From the NCBI GenBank assembly GCA_003243865.1, contig QHBQ01000125.1, positions 1 to 7,956 of the forward strand: DNA of 7,956 bases, in the 5' to 3' direction. The notes under the pieces are model-generated. The model was not told where the DNA came from and did not search any database. It saw nothing but the letters and a program-made list of their open reading frames with translations. A program made the position numbers and the translations under genes. Of the stretch, positions 1-7,156 are shown one piece after another; position 1 is the first letter of the stretch; the number at the start of each line of letters is the position of its first letter. This stretch comes from Candidatus Chloroheliales bacterium (lineage in GTDB: Bacteria; Chloroflexota; Chloroflexia; QHBQ01).

Positions 1-663
1 TACACCTTCATCAACGACAGCGACTGGCTGGTGGTGATGTTGCTCAGTGTAGTGGCGGCGATAATGACCGGCAGCGAGTTCAGCCTCGGCACCGTCCGCC
101 TGCTGCTGGTGCGCGGGCCGGGGCGGATCAACCTCTGGTTGAGCAAGGCGCTGTTGCTGCTCATCTTCGCGGCGGCTATCAGCGTAGTTGATGTATTGCT
201 CGGCTTCGTCCTCGGCACGATAATTGACGCAGTGACCGGCCACCAGAACGCCTGGAGCTTTGGCGAAACCGCGCTGGGCGCGTTGCAGCTGATCGGCGCA
301 GGCACGCTCTCGTTCTGGACCTACGCGCTGCTGGCGCTGCTCGCCGCTACCTTCTTCCGTTCGCCGATTGCGGGCATCGGCGTGGCGCTGGGCTACCGCG
401 TGGCTGAGATTGTCGCTACCCCGCTGCTGATACTCGCTTTGCAGGGCACCGATCTGATCCACCTGCTCGGCCAGTTGAACTACTTCCTGATCGGTAACAA
501 TATGGACAGCCTGTTCCGCTACGCTGCCCCGGTTGGCTGGGCCAGCACGCCCTCGCTGTTCGTCATCAACGGGCCGCAGGCGCTGATCTATATGCTGGTC
601 GTCGCCACTCTCTGCCTGGGCCTGGCGCTGTTCAATATGCAGAGCCGCGATGTGACGAGCTAG
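1..663 (+). CDS. ABC-2 type transporter permease, C-terminal part (5' truncated by window)
   Basis: The frame is open from base 1, so the start lies upstream of the window; 220 residues are visible, ending at TAG. It is strongly hydrophobic, with about five membrane segments near residues 10-24, 48-72, 97-117, 121-147 and 193-212. Between the first two lies a cytoplasmic-type loop, GSEFSLGTVRLLLVRGPGR, matching the E-[FY]-S-x-G-T-x-R-x-L-L pattern of ABC-2 type permeases of exporters for drugs or other substrates. Such a protein would sit in the cytoplasmic membrane and pair with an ATPase probably encoded upstream, outside the window. The substrate cannot be read from this fragment. A heptamer repeat and a strong terminator follow directly, so this is the last gene of its operon. 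Family is fairly sure; specificity is unknown. Confidence 0.8.
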   Translation, partial: YTFINDSDWLVVMLLSVVAAIMTGSEFSLGTVRLLLVRGPGRINLWLSKALLLLIFAAAISVVDVLLGFVLGTIIDAVTGHQNAWSFGETALGALQLIGAGTLSFWTYALLALLAATFFRSPIAGIGVALGYRVAEIVATPLLILALQGTDLIHLLGQLNYFLIGNNMDSLFRYAAPVGWASTPSLFVINGPQALIYMLVVATLCLGLALFNMQSRDVTS

Positions 664-826: not shown

Positions 827-832
827 TATAAT
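827..832 (+). promoter_or_regulatory. Promoter -10 box for the micro-ORF transcript
   Basis: A perfect TATAAT lies 72 bases upstream of the first micro-ORF. No convincing TTGACA is seen at the right distance; the best is a weak AGGTGA-like word near 804-809. Transcription would start near 838-840, just at a small inverted repeat, TGTCA-GTAA-TGACA (838-851). Confidence 0.5.
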
Positions 833-852
833 AACAATGTCAGTAATGACAA

Positions 853-877
853 CTAGCGCGGACCGCAAGTCCGCTAG
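853..877 (+). other. 5' leader hairpin of the micro-ORF transcript
   Basis: CTAG (853-856) pairs with CTAG (874-877) and CGGAC (859-863) with GTCCG (869-873), leaving a two-base CG bulge and a CGCAA loop. It lies between the predicted transcript start and the first micro-ORF. A degenerate counterpart (CCGGCCAAGCTAGCC, 1003-1016) precedes the second micro-ORF, so the duplication probably includes this leader. Confidence 0.5.
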
Positions 878-903
878 AGCAGTGACAGAAAGCGAGAATA
901 GAA

Positions 904-972
904 ATGCAGGTCACGATGAGCCAGCTATTTGAGGCCGCCAACAGCGGCGTCACGAAGCCCCACAACCGTTAA
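904..972 (+). CDS. Micro-ORF 1: 22-residue peptide, MQVT..Q.F.A.NS family
   Basis: ATG at 904 to TAA at 970-972 gives 22 residues beginning MQVTMSQLFEAANS, with a basic C-terminal end (K, H, R). It is preceded by AGAAAGCGAG (887-896), a purine-rich element 17 bases from the ATG (first base to first base), repeated at the same distance before micro-ORF 2. The case for translation is the comparison of the two copies: over the first 14 codons, 9 residues are identical and several differences are synonymous third-base changes (GTC/GTT, ACG/ACA, GCC/GCA) or conservative (M/L, L/I). I recognise no family. It could be a regulatory leader peptide, a small signalling or membrane-associated peptide, or part of a structured RNA that only looks coding. 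The stop codon lies in the loop of a hairpin (955-983). Confidence 0.45.
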   Translation: MQVTMSQLFEAANSGVTKPHNR

Positions 973-983
973 CGGTGCGGCTT
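955..983 (+). other. Hairpin spanning the stop codon of micro-ORF 1
   Basis: AAGCC (955-959) pairs with GGCTT (979-983), CAC (961-963) with GTG (975-977), with one C/C mismatch, and an inner CG-TTAA-CG carries the TAA stop codon in its loop. An alternative inner fold is the palindrome ACCGTTAACGGT (965-976). There is no T-run, so this is not a terminator. A terminating ribosome would have to melt it. Confidence 0.5.
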
Positions 984-989
984 ACCTCT

Positions 990-1045
990 ATGGTAATCCT
1001 CACCGGCCAAGCTAGCCACTAGCACAAGAAAGCGAGGATTACCAT
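990..1045 (+). promoter_or_regulatory. Inverted repeat sequestering ribosome site and start of micro-ORF 2
   Basis: ATGGTAATCCTC (990-1001) is a perfect 12-base inverted match to GAGGATTACCAT (1034-1045), with a 32-base loop. The 3' arm contains the GAGGA ribosome site and the first two bases of the ATG (1044-1046); the third can add a G-U pair with T989. In RNA this would block initiation at micro-ORF 2 until the helix is opened, the layout expected of a translational switch. What opens it is not visible. Confidence 0.6.
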
Positions 1046-1115
1046 GCAGGTTACACTCGGCCAGATCTTTCTGGCATTGAACAGCAAGAGTTCTGGCAAG
1101 TCAAAAGACAAGTGA
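1044..1115 (+). CDS. Micro-ORF 2: 23-residue peptide paralogous to micro-ORF 1
   Basis: ATG at 1044 to TGA at 1113-1115 gives 23 residues beginning MQVTLGQIFLALNS and ending in a lysine/serine-rich tail. The start lies exactly 140 bases after that of micro-ORF 1. AGAAAGCGAGGAT (1027-1039) supplies a good GAGGA ribosome site with five-base spacing after AGGA. Upstream similarity reaches back to a shared GCTAG word, so the whole unit looks duplicated: leader, ribosome site and peptide head. The first 14 codons share 29 of 42 bases with copy 1, while the tails are unrelated. The N-terminal half is mildly hydrophobic and could be amphipathic. It is not hydrophobic enough to look like a classic type I toxin. 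The function is unknown. Confidence 0.5.
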   Translation: MQVTLGQIFLALNSKSSGKSKDK

Positions 1116-1119
1116 GCAA

Positions 1120-1146
1120 GCGTGCCCCAACCCCGATGGGGTACGC
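1120..1146 (+). other. Hairpin just after micro-ORF 2
   Basis: GCGTGCCCC (1120-1128) pairs with GGGGTACGC (1138-1146), nine pairs including one G-T. An alternative compact fold is CCCC-GAT-GGGG (1131-1141). No T-run follows, so it is more likely an RNA fold or stability element than a terminator. Confidence 0.5.
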
Positions 1147-1182
1147 ACCTCCACTAACAACCACACCTTTCCTCTCCGGAAC

Positions 1183-1220
1183 AAAAAGGCGCTTAGGCTA
1201 TATGCCCAAAGCGCCTTTTT
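1183..1220. terminator. Bidirectional terminator between the micro-ORF transcript and the PIN toxin
   Basis: AAAAAGGCGCTT (1183-1194) is a perfect 12-base inverted match to AAGCGCCTTTTT (1209-1220), with an inner GGC-TATAT-GCC. The T-run continues as TTTTTGTTTG on the plus strand and a matching T-run is present on the minus strand. It therefore closes the micro-ORF transcript and also lies 17 bases beyond the toxin stop on the other strand. Confidence 0.85.
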
Positions 1221-1236
1221 GTTTGTAATCTAGTTG

Positions 1237-1637
1237 CTATGGAACCCGCTTGTAAGGCTGCTCAATCAATAGCCCCGGTATCGGCTTGAAATCCCTGACG
1301 TTGAAAGTGCAGAGTGGCACGCCCAAGCCTACCGCACACGCTCCGATTAGCGCATCGAAGATACCTATGTTGTGGCTGAGGTGTAGTTTCTCATAATAAG
1401 CAACCGCCCATTGCACTCGGCATCAGTGGGCCAGTAGACGGTGAATTGTCTAACCAGCTTCATTACCCGCTGCATCTCTTGCTTGTTCGCGCACCCAGCC
1501 ATCAACTCCATAACTACATAGCCAGGGAGAGCAAAATCTGCGGCAGACATGGTGCTAAACCAATTGAGTACAGGCGGGTAACCTCTCATTACGTCAACTA
1601 CGATGTTGGTGTCAAGCAGACGCACCACCCTACTCAT
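1237..1637 (-). pseudogene. PIN-domain (VapC-type) toxin, broken by a one-base frameshift
   Basis: VapC-type PIN domains are small Mg-dependent ribonucleases that form the toxin of type II toxin-antitoxin systems. The ATG at 1637-1635 has a good AGGAG site and gives MSRVVRLLDTN..., with the first acidic residue D9 and E44 in VVMELMAG. The reading frame breaks near 1407-1413, after about residue 76 (TDAECN), and runs to a stop at 1365-1367. One frame over, the protein continues as AVAYYEKLHLSHNIGIFDAL, then a TFNVRDF motif, and ends ...QPYKRVP at 1237-1239. Adding one base restores a 133-residue protein of normal family length with all four acidic positions (D9, E44, D95, D116). As read, the last two active-site aspartates are lost. 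It may be an inactivated toxin or a sequencing error. The start overlaps the antitoxin end by eight bases. Confidence 0.8.
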
Positions 1638-2104: not shown

Positions 2105-3337
2105 CTAGATGATCCCCAATTCCCTCCCCACCTGCTCGAACGCGCCGAGCGCGGTGTCTAGGTTCTCTTTTGTGTGCGCAGCGGTGACGATGGTGCGCAC
2201 GCGGGCCTTGTCTGCCGCGACGGTGGGGTAGACGATGGCCTGGGCGAACACGCCCTCCTCGAACAGCCGGTCACTCAGCTTGCCCGCCGTCTCACTGGTG
2301 CCGACAATAACCGGCGTGATCGGCGTTTCGCTCTTGCCGGTGTTGAAGCCGAGCGCGTTGAGCCGCTCCTTGAAATAGCGGGCGTTGTCCCACAGCCGCT
2401 GGTGCAGTTGCGGCTCCGACTGCATGATGCGCAACGCTTCGCGGCAGGTGGCGACTACGCTGGGCGGCTGGCTGGTGCTGAACAGGAAGGGGCGAGCGCG
2501 TTGGATCATCATGTCGCGCAACTCCTGCATACAGGCAACGTAGCCGCCCATCGCGCCGATCGCCTTCGACAGCGTGCCGATCTGCACCGCGACCCGCCCG
2601 TACAGCCCAAAGTGGCTGGTGCTGCCCGCGCCGTTCTCGCCCAGCACACCGCTGGCGTGGGCGTCGTCAATGTAGACCGCCGCGCCGTAGCGCTCGGCCA
2701 GCTCGACAATCTCCGGCAGCTTCGCAATGTCGCCATCCATGCTGAACACGCCGTCGGTGATGATCAGGCGCAGACGATAGCCGTTCTGCGTCTCCTTCAG
2801 CGCCGCTTCCAGCGCGTCCATATCGCTGTGCTTGTAGATCTTGCGGGCGGCTTTGGTCAGGCGGATGCCATCAATGATGCTGGCGTGGTTCAGTTCGTCG
2901 GTGATGACCACATCCTGGTCGGTGACGATGCTGCCGATCGCCCCCTGGTTGGCGGTGAAGCCGGAGCCGAAGGTGAGCGCCGCCTCGGTGTGCTTGAACT
3001 CAGCCAGTTCCTGCTCAAGCAACTGGTGCAGGGTCATCGTGCCGATGATGGTGCGCACCGCGCCGCTGCCCACCCCAAACTCGTCAATCGCCTGCTTCGC
3101 CGCCGCTTCGAGGCGCGGATCGGTGCAGAGGCCGAGATAGTTGTTCGACGACAGATTGATCACCGTCTTGCCGTTGATGGTCGAGACTGCCGCCTGGCGG
3201 CTCTCCAACACGCGCAGTTCGCGGTAGAGGTGCTGGGTCTTCAGGTCGTTCAGCGCCGCCTGCAATGCGGTGCGCAGCCCGCCCGCGTCGGTCATTGCGT
3301 TGCTGGCTGCTTGTGGGGTAATTACATCTGTTGCCAT
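2105..3337 (-). CDS. kbl: Glycine C-acetyltransferase (2-amino-3-ketobutyrate CoA ligase)
   Basis: A PLP-dependent cytosolic enzyme of the alpha-oxoamine synthase family that splits 2-amino-3-ketobutyrate with CoA into glycine and acetyl-CoA, the second step of threonine breakdown. The 410-residue length is close to the family norm of about 395-400, with a short non-conserved N-terminus. Visible motifs (numbered from the chosen start): SSNNYLGL near 63-70, VGSGAVRTI for substrate binding near 89-97, GSGFTAN near 124-130, [11 protein letters not shown] with PLP-stacking H151, YIDDAHASG with D224 and H227, and the PLP-binding lysine K258 in [12 protein letters not shown]. BioF, which shares these motifs, is the main alternative, but the adjacent tdh and the [10 protein letters not shown] and [15 protein letters not shown] segments favour Kbl. 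Of two close ATGs, the one at 3337 is chosen because AGGAGG abuts the other with no spacing. Confidence 0.93.
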
Positions 3338-3343
3338 TGTCAT

Positions 3344-3349
3344 CCTCCT
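3344..3349 (-). promoter_or_regulatory. Ribosome binding site that fixes the kbl start
   Basis: A perfect AGGAGG on the minus strand directly touches the ATG at 3343-3341 (zero spacing) but is six bases from the ATG at 3337-3335. The second ATG is therefore the likely start. Confidence 0.75.
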
Positions 3350-3356
3350 AGTAATA

Positions 3357-3431
3357 GGATTAAGGATTAAGGACGAAGGATTAAGGAAGTTATGCTAAAT
3401 CCGCTTTATCTTTAATCCTTAATCTTTAATC
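3357..3431. repeat. Heptamer repeats forming a long hairpin between tdh and kbl
   Basis: Tandem units GGATTAA (3357-3363), GGATTAA (3364-3370), GGACGAA (3371-3377), GGATTAA (3378-3384) are followed after 26 bases by the inverted units TTTAATC, CTTAATC, TTTAATC (3411-3431). The best pairing, 3358-3372 with 3410-3424, matches 14 of 15 bases. The element fills nearly all of the 94-base gap between the tdh stop and the kbl start, so the message carries a hairpin just before the kbl ribosome site. No T-run follows it in the direction of transcription. Confidence 0.7.
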
Positions 3432-4574
3432 TCACGGTATCAGCACAATCTTGCCCGACTTACCCTCGTTCATCAGGCGGAAGGCTTCATCAAATTGGTC
3501 GAGCGGCAGGTGGTGGGTGATAACCGAGCGGGGGTCAACCAGGCCACCAGCAAGCAGGGCGCGACTCTGATACCAGGTCTTCCAGATGCGTCGCCCGGTG
3601 ATGCCATGCACGGTCGCGCCCTTGAAGATGACGTCGCCCGCCATATCCAGTTCGTAAGGCCGGGCTGGGGTGCCGAGCATCGCGATTGAGCCGCCGAAGC
3701 GGAGCATCTCGAACGCTTGCTGGGTGGCCCGCGCATTGCCGCTCATCTCCAGCACCACGCCCGCACCGACCCCGTCGGTTGCGGCCCGCACCGCCGCGAC
3801 CGGGTCTTGCTCCAGCGAGTTGATGGTCAGGGTTGCGCCCATCTGCCGCGCAAGGTCGAGCCGCAGGTTGTTCACGTCAATTGCGACCACACCGAGCGCC
3901 CCTGCGGCTCTGGCGATGCCAATTGCCCACAGGCCGAGTGGCCCGCAGCCCACCACCGCAACGTACTCGGTGACCAGCGGCTGGGCAAGGGCGGTATGCA
4001 CCGCGTTGCCGAACGGCTCCATGATCGTTGCCAAATCGAGCGGCAGGTGGGGGTCGTTCTTCCAGCAGACGGCGGCAGGAACCGCGATGTACTCGGCGAA
4101 GCAGCCGTCGCGGTCAACCCCGATGATCTTGACGTTCTGGCAGATGTGGCGCATATCGGTGCGGCATTGGTAGCAGTGGCCGCAGGTGATGTGCGTCTCC
4201 ACCGACACGAAGTCGCCCGCCTGAAGCTCGCGCACGTTGCCGCCGACGGCCACAACATCGCCGCAGAACTCGTGACCCATCGTCTGCGGCGGATGCACCC
4301 GCCCCTGCGCCCAGGGGTCCCAGTTGTAGATATGCAAGTCGGTGCCACAAATCGAGGTGGCCCGTACCTTAATCAGCGCCCCGTCCGCGCCCACCTGCGG
4401 TATCGGCACCTGCTGCAGCTGCGCCCCTGGCGCGGCCTCAGCCTTCACCACTGCCTGCATCGTGCTGCCCGCTGGCGGCGCCGTGTGCTGGTGGCTGGTG
4501 GTAGTCGTCGTGCCGTCAGCAACCAGCCGGGCATCTGCGCGCACGCTGGTTGAAGTTTCAGTCATGGTAGTCAA
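3432..4574 (-). CDS. tdh: L-threonine 3-dehydrogenase (zinc, NAD-dependent)
   Basis: A zinc-containing medium-chain dehydrogenase that oxidises L-threonine with NAD+ to 2-amino-3-ketobutyrate, the substrate of the next gene, kbl. Counting from the internal methionine in MQAVVKAEA (codon at 4460-4458), catalytic zinc ligands fall at C38, H63 and E64, the active-site H90 in VETH, structural zinc cysteines at C93, C96, C99 and C107, the NAD-binding GCGPLG at 171-176, and NAD-selecting D195. As I recall, these equal the E. coli numbering, and the module is 342 residues (E. coli 341). The frame extends 38 codons further upstream, rich in T, A and S. I chose TTG at 4574, nine bases after AGGAGG (4584-4589); the ATG at 4565 is 18 bases away and the ATG at 4460 lacks a ribosome site. 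A GTG at 4655 lies inside the promoter. Function is sure, the exact start is not. Confidence 0.93.
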   Translation of the reverse strand: MTTMTETSTSVRADARLVADGTTTTTSHQHTAPPAGSTMQAVVKAEAAPGAQLQQVPIPQVGADGALIKVRATSICGTDLHIYNWDPWAQGRVHPPQTMGHEFCGDVVAVGGNVRELQAGDFVSVETHITCGHCYQCRTDMRHICQNVKIIGVDRDGCFAEYIAVPAAVCWKNDPHLPLDLATIMEPFGNAVHTALAQPLVTEYVAVVGCGPLGLWAIGIARAAGALGVVAIDVNNLRLDLARQMGATLTINSLEQDPVAAVRAATDGVGAGVVLEMSGNARATQQAFEMLRFGGSIAMLGTPARPYELDMAGDVIFKGATVHGITGRRIWKTWYQSRALLAGGLVDPRSVITHHLPLDQFDEAFRLMNEGKSGKIVLIP

Positions 4575-5375: not shown

Positions 5376-5437
5376 TCTCAAGTTTACTTCTTACCGAAGT
5401 TGGTATTCACACGATGCACACAGGAAGGGAAAGGGCA

Positions 5438-6850
5438 ATGTACGCTCAATCAGGCTGGATTAGGCAACTCACCTTGCTGAAGGTAGTCAGCGCAGTTCTG
5501 CTCAGTTGGTTTGCGCTTGCTGCCTGTAATACAGGCGGTCAGCCGAGTCAGGCTGGCACCGGTGCCGGGCAAGTGTCATCGAACTCACCTGCTACCCAAA
5601 TGCTGCCCACCCCGGCTGGGACGCCAGGTCAGGATGAAATAAATGCACAGGCAACCAAGATTGCTCTGCGAGTGTTGGCAACGCCAGTTTCTCTAGTAAA
5701 CAAATCTCCAGAGGAAATTGCGCAAAAGGCGGTGGAGTTCGCACGTCAACACGGCACAATTCGCAGTGGCGAACCTCAAGTGCTGCTCACCCGTCCAGTT
5801 ACCCTTGATCAACTCACCGCACTGGGGCTGGGGAAACACGAGAGCGAGACTATCGAGCAGCCACCGCTAGTTATGGTTATCCTCAAAGGGGATTTCTCCC
5901 CCTTCCCCAAACCGGGCGCAGGCGAAAGCGCCTCCCCCAGCCAACCCCCTTCGCAAGCGGACGCTAACCGCATTACTTACGTCGCTTACGTGTATAACCT
6001 GTGGGGTGGGACACCCACTATTATCCAAGAGTCCACGGATGGTGGCGTTTTTAAGAAAGCGCTCAATGATCCAACGCTGCCTGATGTGCCATCGCTCAGC
6101 CCGCTGGATGATCCGAAGCATGACTCGCAACCACGAGTAGCCAAGGTGCTGCATTATGGTGATACTGGCATTGGGGAACCAATCAGCGGTCAGGCTATAC
6201 ACAAAGCAAGCTTTGGAGCCTGGGATTACCTTGCCAAGCTCGGCGTTGTGAACGTGCTGGACACCGACGGTACGGTGATCAACCCCAACCAAATCTACGT
6301 CATGGTTGGTCACAACTGGAACTCACCGACCGGAACACAGGATTACATTGCAGCAAACAAGCAAATGCTGCCGCACCTTGCAACGCAAGGTGGACAGGTG
6401 GAGATCTCGATCGTCTTCAACACGTATGTACCTGCCGAGCGGTTCCGAACCTTCGCGCAAGCGCACGGGCTGCGAGTAGGCTCATCGTACCTGAGAGCAA
6501 TAGACCAGGCTGCCACGCCAATCTATGCTCCATACTACACCCTGCACATCAAAGCGGGCGAGGCCGACCCTGTTCCACAAGCTCAAGTGGGCAGCAAAAT
6601 CGTGGCCGCGAACGACGCACCGCAGAAACAAGTGCAACTCAAAGGTGTGTATTCAACTCACGCCTGGGTAGATGCAAAGGAACTTCCCGCAATCGCTGCC
6701 GAGTCCTCTGTTTACTACGTTGACGTTACGGCAGAGGCGGCGCGTAACGACCTGGTGAAAGCTGGCATCAGCAATGCCAAGCAGGCGGTGGTGGTGAACT
6801 ACGCATACGTCCTCTTCGCAGCGGTGGAACAGCCGTATCAATCCAAGTAG
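5438..6850 (+). CDS. Lipoprotein of unknown function, 470 residues
   Basis: The ATG at 5438 follows a purine-rich AGGAAGGGAAAGGG ribosome site and opens a lipoprotein signal: basic start (K15), hydrophobic stretch 16-28 and lipobox LAAC with the lipidated cysteine at C30. A low-complexity G/S/P/T linker (31-65) follows, typical of surface lipoproteins. The mature part is probably extracytoplasmic and membrane-anchored. Around 113-215 is a compact-looking segment (VMVILKGDF, then YVAYVYNLWGG, then FKKALNDP), interrupted by a proline/serine-rich insert (158-176). A middle part (236-375) contains DTDGTVINPNQIYVMVGHNW, and the end (400-465) is a further mixed region. I recognise no named domain or catalytic motif. 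The frame stays open upstream into the SLH remnant (from 5147), but that is decay product rather than the true N-terminus, since the signal peptide would then be internal. Confidence 0.8.
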   Translation: MYAQSGWIRQLTLLKVVSAVLLSWFALAACNTGGQPSQAGTGAGQVSSNSPATQMLPTPAGTPGQDEINAQATKIALRVLATPVSLVNKSPEEIAQKAVEFARQHGTIRSGEPQVLLTRPVTLDQLTALGLGKHESETIEQPPLVMVILKGDFSPFPKPGAGESASPSQPPSQADANRITYVAYVYNLWGGTPTIIQESTDGGVFKKALNDPTLPDVPSLSPLDDPKHDSQPRVAKVLHYGDTGIGEPISGQAIHKASFGAWDYLAKLGVVNVLDTDGTVINPNQIYVMVGHNWNSPTGTQDYIAANKQMLPHLATQGGQVEISIVFNTYVPAERFRTFAQAHGLRVGSSYLRAIDQAATPIYAPYYTLHIKAGEADPVPQAQVGSKIVAANDAPQKQVQLKGVYSTHAWVDAKELPAIAAESSVYYVDVTAEAARNDLVKAGISNAKQAVVVNYAYVLFAAVEQPYQSK

Positions 6851-7083: not shown

Positions 7084-7156
7084 GGAGACGTGGTGTAGCG
7101 GTTAACATGCGGCCCTGTCAAGGCCGAGATCGCGGGTTCGATCCCCGTCGTCTCCG
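7084..7156 (+). tRNA. tRNA-Asp (anticodon GTC)
   Basis: A complete 73-base cloverleaf: acceptor GGAGACG (7084-7090) pairs with CGTCTCC (7149-7155), discriminator G7156. The anticodon stem CGGCC/GGCCG encloses CTGTCAA with anticodon GTC, and the T arm GCGGG-TTCGATC-CCCGT has the canonical loop. CCA is not encoded (CCCA follows), so it must be added enzymatically. It is a single-gene unit with its own promoter and terminator. Confidence 0.96.

Follow-up and report, generated by a model that had tools for sequence, protein, structure and literature searches.

The DNA analysed here (the window) is a stretch of 7,956 nucleotides from Candidatus Chloroheliales, an order in the Chloroflexia that is mentioned 13 times in a study of a phototrophic member of the Chloroflexota possessing a type I reaction centre (PMC10972752). 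An intergenic gap of 573 bases (664–1236) separates the end of an ABC-2 permease gene from a convergent vapC-like gene, and inside this gap, on the plus strand, are two micro-ORFs whose starts are 140 bases apart (Table 1). Each is preceded by an identical copy of the block AGAAAGCGAG, which begins 17 bases 5' of the ATG in either case (at 887 and 1027). The spacer between block and ATG is seven bases long in both copies, with two of the seven bases identical. This order, a common block followed by an equal spacer and then by an ATG and a common head, is what would be expected of a ribosome site, a spacer and a coding start. The arrangement had been noted in a preliminary description of the locus, and the lengths of the two ORFs, their separation and the placing of the block are all confirmed from the sequence.

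Table 1 Features in and beside the gap
Feature	Position	Strand	Details
ABC-2 permease gene end	1–663		PF12730 match
TATAAT hexamer, possible −10 box	827–832	+	exact sequence; no recognisable −35
Small 5' hairpin	838–851	+	5-bp stem, GUAA loop; fold of 838–975
Small 5' hairpin	858–874	+	6-bp stem; fold of 838–975
AGAAAGCGAG copy 1	887–896	+	contains weak Shine-Dalgarno-like part of ORF1
Micro-ORF 1 (ORF1)	904–972	+	22 aa, MQVTMSQLFEAANSGVTKPHNR
Hairpin over ORF2 ribosome site and ATG	984–1051	+	arms 984–1001 / 1034–1051, perfect core 990–1001/1034–1045
AGAAAGCGAG copy 2	1027–1036	+	ahead of ORF2
Micro-ORF 2 (ORF2)	1044–1115	+	23 aa, MQVTLGQIFLALNSKSSGKSKDK
10-bp hairpin 3' of ORF2	1120–1146	+	fold of 1120–1180: −20.6 kcal/mol, z −4.1
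Terminator-like palindrome	1180–1223		near-symmetrical, either strand possible; arms 94% complementary

The vapC-like (PIN) toxin gene that closes the gap (1237–1637, minus strand) is itself interrupted by a frame break near 1400, which may reflect either a pseudogene or a sequencing error. Its N-terminal part matches the NCBIfam VapC model with an E value of 1.7e-4 and 21.7 bits, below the cut-off of 80, and has no Pfam match; the C-terminal part, PIN-like by sequence reading, lies in another frame. Directly upstream is a gene for a 118 amino acid DUF7387/HicB-like protein (1633–1986, minus), for which 33 proteins were listed, one relative being named HicB family by its source, and which has one identical protein on another contig. 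The two genes possibly form a mixed toxin–antitoxin pair.

The two peptides have a common, mildly hydrophobic head (mean hydrophobicity 0.16 for peptide 1 and 0.42 for peptide 2 on the Eisenberg scale) and differ in their tails, which are polar and mostly basic. The mildly hydrophobic part of the head spans some 12 residues, peptide 1 having a glutamate at position 10, and neither peptide contains cysteine. A reading of the heads as amphipathic helices was dropped, as their helical moments are not above those of permutations (P 0.16 and 0.48).

Over the 14-residue head, nine residues and 29 of the 42 bases are identical, as a recount of the figures first given showed, and similarity drops after codon 14 in both copies. 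The BLOSUM62 score of the pair over these 14 residues is 44. Among the 10,953 pairs that can be formed across the whole window from the 149 ATG starts of 14 codons or more, nested starts being counted apart, the next best score is 30. A score of 44 was not attained in any of 400 shuffles of 664–1236 using ATG starts (largest 29), nor in 400 further shuffles allowing ATG, GTG and TTG starts (largest 39). At the DNA level, the local match between 838–983 and 984–1140 (score 28) was equalled by one of 1000 shuffles preserving dinucleotide content. It could be argued that micro-ORFs of 22 codons are common and that this pair was picked post hoc out of the whole window, so that two random short ORFs merely happen to look alike, but a lead of 14 score units over every other pair, two sets of shuffles without an equal and a DNA match reached once in a thousand make this very unlikely. 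The resemblance of the micro-ORFs exceeds chance. That the two units, each comprising a ribosome site and a micro-ORF, are paralogous is well supported by these comparisons, and the tandem pair originally proposed thus stands.

A duplication within one short stretch offers a built-in, if weak, coding test from a single genome. The 13 base changes in the heads fall 5, 2 and 6 times at codon positions 1, 2 and 3. When the changes were placed at random, the observed head score had a P value of 0.0008 or 0.002, depending on which copy served as the starting sequence; for the count of identical residues it was 0.010 or 0.024. Shuffling alignment columns is the stricter null: over the 14 codons the ORF frame gave P 0.0104 and the other five frames at least 0.15, whilst over 19 codons (a 59-base block beginning at AGAAAGCGAG) the values were 0.0033 and at least 0.067. 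The ORF frame was the best of six in both versions, and multiplying by the six frames gives approximately 0.06 and 0.02, respectively. The frame tests rest on two sequences from one contig. The preliminary description had seen in the synonymous changes a sign of selection on the peptide; the frame-specific pattern lends this moderate support from two sequences, and the peptide is probably, on thin evidence, the conserved entity. An antisense ORF of 41 amino acids (840–965, minus) was considered and rejected: the copies resemble each other less in its frame (P 0.067 for 19 codons and 0.15 for 14), and no database protein shares three words with its product.

The similarity in frame does not begin at the ATGs but extends five codons upstream of both, reading KARIE in one copy and KARIT in the other, with two synonymous third-base changes (in the R and I codons). 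It may reflect either a conserved ribosome site or a coding sequence that was formerly longer upstream, between which two copies cannot discriminate. The second possibility leads to a serious rival explanation, namely that the micro-ORFs are two fragments left by the decay of a longer gene that had been duplicated, KARI(E/T)MQVT..Q.F.A.NS being its remnant and the ORFs having been cut by stops. The upstream similarity runs as far as in-frame stops at 883–885 and 1020–1022, as decay would have it, and the split of the adjoining vapC-like gene over two frames means that decay may be going on nearby. Most of that similarity consists, however, of the ten identical bases of AGAAAGCGAG, which a common ribosome site explains equally well, and the loss of similarity past codon 14 in both copies also speaks against a longer parent. 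No parent protein was found with short-peptide queries in Pfam, NCBIfam, PHROGs or the PDB, and the pattern KARI.MQVT occurs at no place in the viral contigs searched. We consider decay a somewhat doubtful account of the locus.

The region also has a marked potential for RNA structure. As a whole, 838–1230 folds far better than shuffled sequence (z −7.7, with none of 100 shuffles as good), mainly on the strength of the hairpins at 984–1051, 1120–1146 and 1180–1223. The second of the small 5' hairpins, 858–874, is absorbed into a larger stem when 838–903 is folded alone. Such folding could indicate a structured RNA that is non-coding and contains an internal repeat, the ORFs being incidental, and when the two units (853–983 and 996–1123) are aligned, four of the 15 pairs in their consensus fold are indeed kept through changes on both sides. 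None of the three strong hairpins is common to both units, however, and the consensus fold reaches just −6.7 kcal/mol, so that a common RNA structure is not favoured despite the double changes; moreover, the differences between the copies track the codon frame. At the gathering score there is no Rfam family in the gap, the sole match in the whole window being a tRNA at 7084–7156, and nine permissive matches all lie outside 904–1115, on terminator-like hairpins. A non-coding RNA is, on this showing, rather unlikely.

One of the hairpins covers the start of ORF2. Its 18-base arms are 89% complementary, the fold of 976–1055 has an energy of −29.3 kcal/mol (z −3.7) and its 12-bp perfect core was reached in none of 60 shuffles of 664–1176, in which the longest was 10. 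In the predicted transcript, bases 1034–1046 would be paired nearly always, and opening the start would cost 16.4 kcal/mol for copy 2 versus 7.2 for copy 1. The ribosome site and ATG of copy 2 are thus predicted to be sequestered, a feature absent from the preliminary description. In local folds of 200 bases copy 1 costs 6.5, copy 2 16.6 and the vapC-like gene 16.8 kcal/mol, with four further starts (duf7387, kbl, tdh and the lipoprotein-like ORF) ranging from 6.0 to 9.7 kcal/mol; since the vapC-like start is about as costly to open, an occluded start is not unique to copy 2. The predicted Shine-Dalgarno duplexes with an assumed 16S tail have energies of −5.2 kcal/mol for ORF1 and −8.1 for ORF2, compared with values at five nearby starts of −9.0, −12.1, −9.6, −6.1 and −7.0, which would make the ribosome sites of the micro-ORFs weak to middling beside those of their neighbours.

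The proximity of ORF1 to this hairpin raises the possibility that the peptides are regulatory leaders, with a ribosome on ORF1 controlling the hairpin of ORF2 or a downstream gene. The occluding hairpin starts 12 bases past the ORF1 stop (972 to 984). The footprint of a ribosome is approximately 15 bases, and one halted at 970–972 would barely touch the 5' arm. There is, in addition, no same-strand gene before the palindrome at 1180–1223, and the next gene is convergent. A leader function appears very unlikely.

The micro-ORFs had been credited with a TATAAT box and a terminator of their own, and both attributions are less certain than that. The hexamer is present exactly, but a sigma-70 scan of 600–1300 on either strand found no site with both hexamers (none found, 0.4 expected). 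The palindrome at 1180–1223 is strong (−28.1 kcal/mol, z −6.5 in the fold of 1176–1230). Against its assignment to the micro-ORFs, it is near-symmetrical and rich in A and T at either end, a consensus terminator scan lists the site on the minus strand only, and the convergent frame that ends at 1237 has its stop just 13 bases away. It may therefore be shared with, or belong to, the convergent gene.

Our preferred reading, held tentatively, is that the gap encodes an unannotated micropeptide transcript carrying two diverged copies, the second gated by a hairpin. The simplest account is that a ribosome site together with its micro-ORF was duplicated within a gap that is otherwise empty. The transcript, putatively started from the TATAAT box, would run for approximately 387 bases (838–1224) and encode two paralogous micropeptides derived from an old tandem duplication of the unit. 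ORF1, with its lower opening cost, would be freely translated and ORF2 mostly silent until the hairpin opens, whether through the binding of a factor, the passage of a ribosome, temperature or processing of the RNA. Because the head is common to both peptides and the tails differ, the head would probably carry a common function, such as binding a protein partner or a membrane surface, and the tails might have different targets or be free to vary; what the peptides do is a guess. In favour of a micropeptide pair are the head score, the distribution of changes over codon positions, the ORF-frame test, the weakness of the common fold and the hairpin predicted at the second start. Against it are the reliance on two sequences, the doubly changed pairs in the consensus fold, the weak ribosome sites, the lack of a −35 and of a homologue, and the KARIE/KARIT similarity, which a micro-ORF starting at its ATG does not need. 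The more specific proposal of a micropeptide family confined to the Candidatus Chloroheliales lineage and encoded as a two-copy transcript, in which copy 1 is always on and copy 2 is on when its hairpin opens, is an unlikely one as things stand. If translated, the pair would be an example of small genes that are invisible to ordinary annotation.

Several known systems invite comparison. Type I toxin mRNAs, of which Ldr and Ibs are examples, have tiny ORFs that are at times found in tandem copies. According to one account (PMC8167048), type I toxins are under 60 amino acids, a limit within which both peptides fall, and the full-length AapA1 mRNA is translationally inactive with its Shine-Dalgarno sequence sequestered. 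Like the present pair, toxin mRNAs such as those of AapA1 and Fst combine tiny ORFs with a Shine-Dalgarno sequence or start hidden in mRNA structure, although in AapA1 this is achieved by long-distance 5'–3' pairing and at ORF2 it would be by a local hairpin. The same account describes type I toxins as typically hydrophobic transmembrane proteins, whereas the micro-ORF peptides, with their mildly hydrophobic head and polar tail, lack that character as judged from their sequence. For this reason membership is not claimed; by analogy, the ORF2 hairpin may work like the hidden Shine-Dalgarno sequence of some type I toxin mRNAs. As to a promoter for an antisense antitoxin, a scan of 600–1300 for promoters of the sigma-70 type found no site on either strand.

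Precursors of the RiPP type are likewise encoded by tandem short ORFs with a common head and divergent tail. The pair shares this layout and differs from them in having no cysteine and a short head. A Pfam scan of seven proteins from the window found no modifying enzyme, and the upstream neighbour is the end of the ABC-2 permease, inside whose gene the window starts. With the entries of small-ORF catalogues (for example GMSC, PMC11364881) the pair has in common that it comprises short intergenic ORFs without a Pfam family, and it differs in being known from the sequence of one genome alone. We place it among the numerous small bacterial ORFs that lack annotation, as a fair candidate and not a discovery.

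Neither peptide has a match in Pfam, NCBIfam, PADLOC or the PDB. In PHROGs peptide 1 has none and peptide 2 two weak, non-significant ones (E 0.06 over 12 residues and E 0.17), in agreement with the earlier remark that no family was known for the peptides. Searches with tblastn of both peptides against phages and plasmids, at E values up to 10, gave no match, nor did the DNA of 800–1240 against the same sequences. The exact element pattern was absent from viral contigs and had one match in GTDB contigs, at the start of a 579 amino acid acetolactate-synthase-like ORF (a name read from sequence) of Bacterium D16-50, which we rejected as chance; the GTDB search used this one exact pattern, requiring 20 unchanged bases, and diverged copies would be missed. 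Two of three degenerate head patterns, KARI.MQVT being one, gave nothing in viral contigs, and the single match of the third was also rejected as chance, there being no similarity beyond approximately 30 bases. Patterns derived from the alignment picked out 45 stretches in viral contigs, none confirmed by tblastn, and the neighbouring genes, used as a route to syntenic viral contigs, gave 18 and 41 pattern matches, again with none confirmed. As these searches covered viral contigs, phages, plasmids, profiles and one exact GTDB pattern, the missing homologues are weak evidence. No publication on this locus was found, judged by titles and the starts of abstracts, which does not in itself show absence from print. 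The single match of the third head pattern, the string MQVTFGQIF, lies inside a 469 amino acid ORF of an IMG/VR contig (5445–5471) and looks coincidental.

Further along the window, a kbl-like aminotransferase-fold gene and a tdh-like zinc dehydrogenase gene lie in tandem on the minus strand (2105–4565) and presumably represent the usual threonine degradation pair. A lipoprotein-like ORF, so named from its sequence, occupies 5417–6847 on the plus strand and has no Pfam family. For a 477 amino acid stretch of its product, 13 relatives besides its own entry were listed among the 7995 candidates sharing most words, with relatives at 62–83% among them, and the one with a named organism, from a Candidatus Chloroheliales MAG, has 69% identity. 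Finally, similar terminator-like palindromes of the form GGGGCGCAC...GCGCCC are found beside gene ends at 689–714 and 2040–2065.
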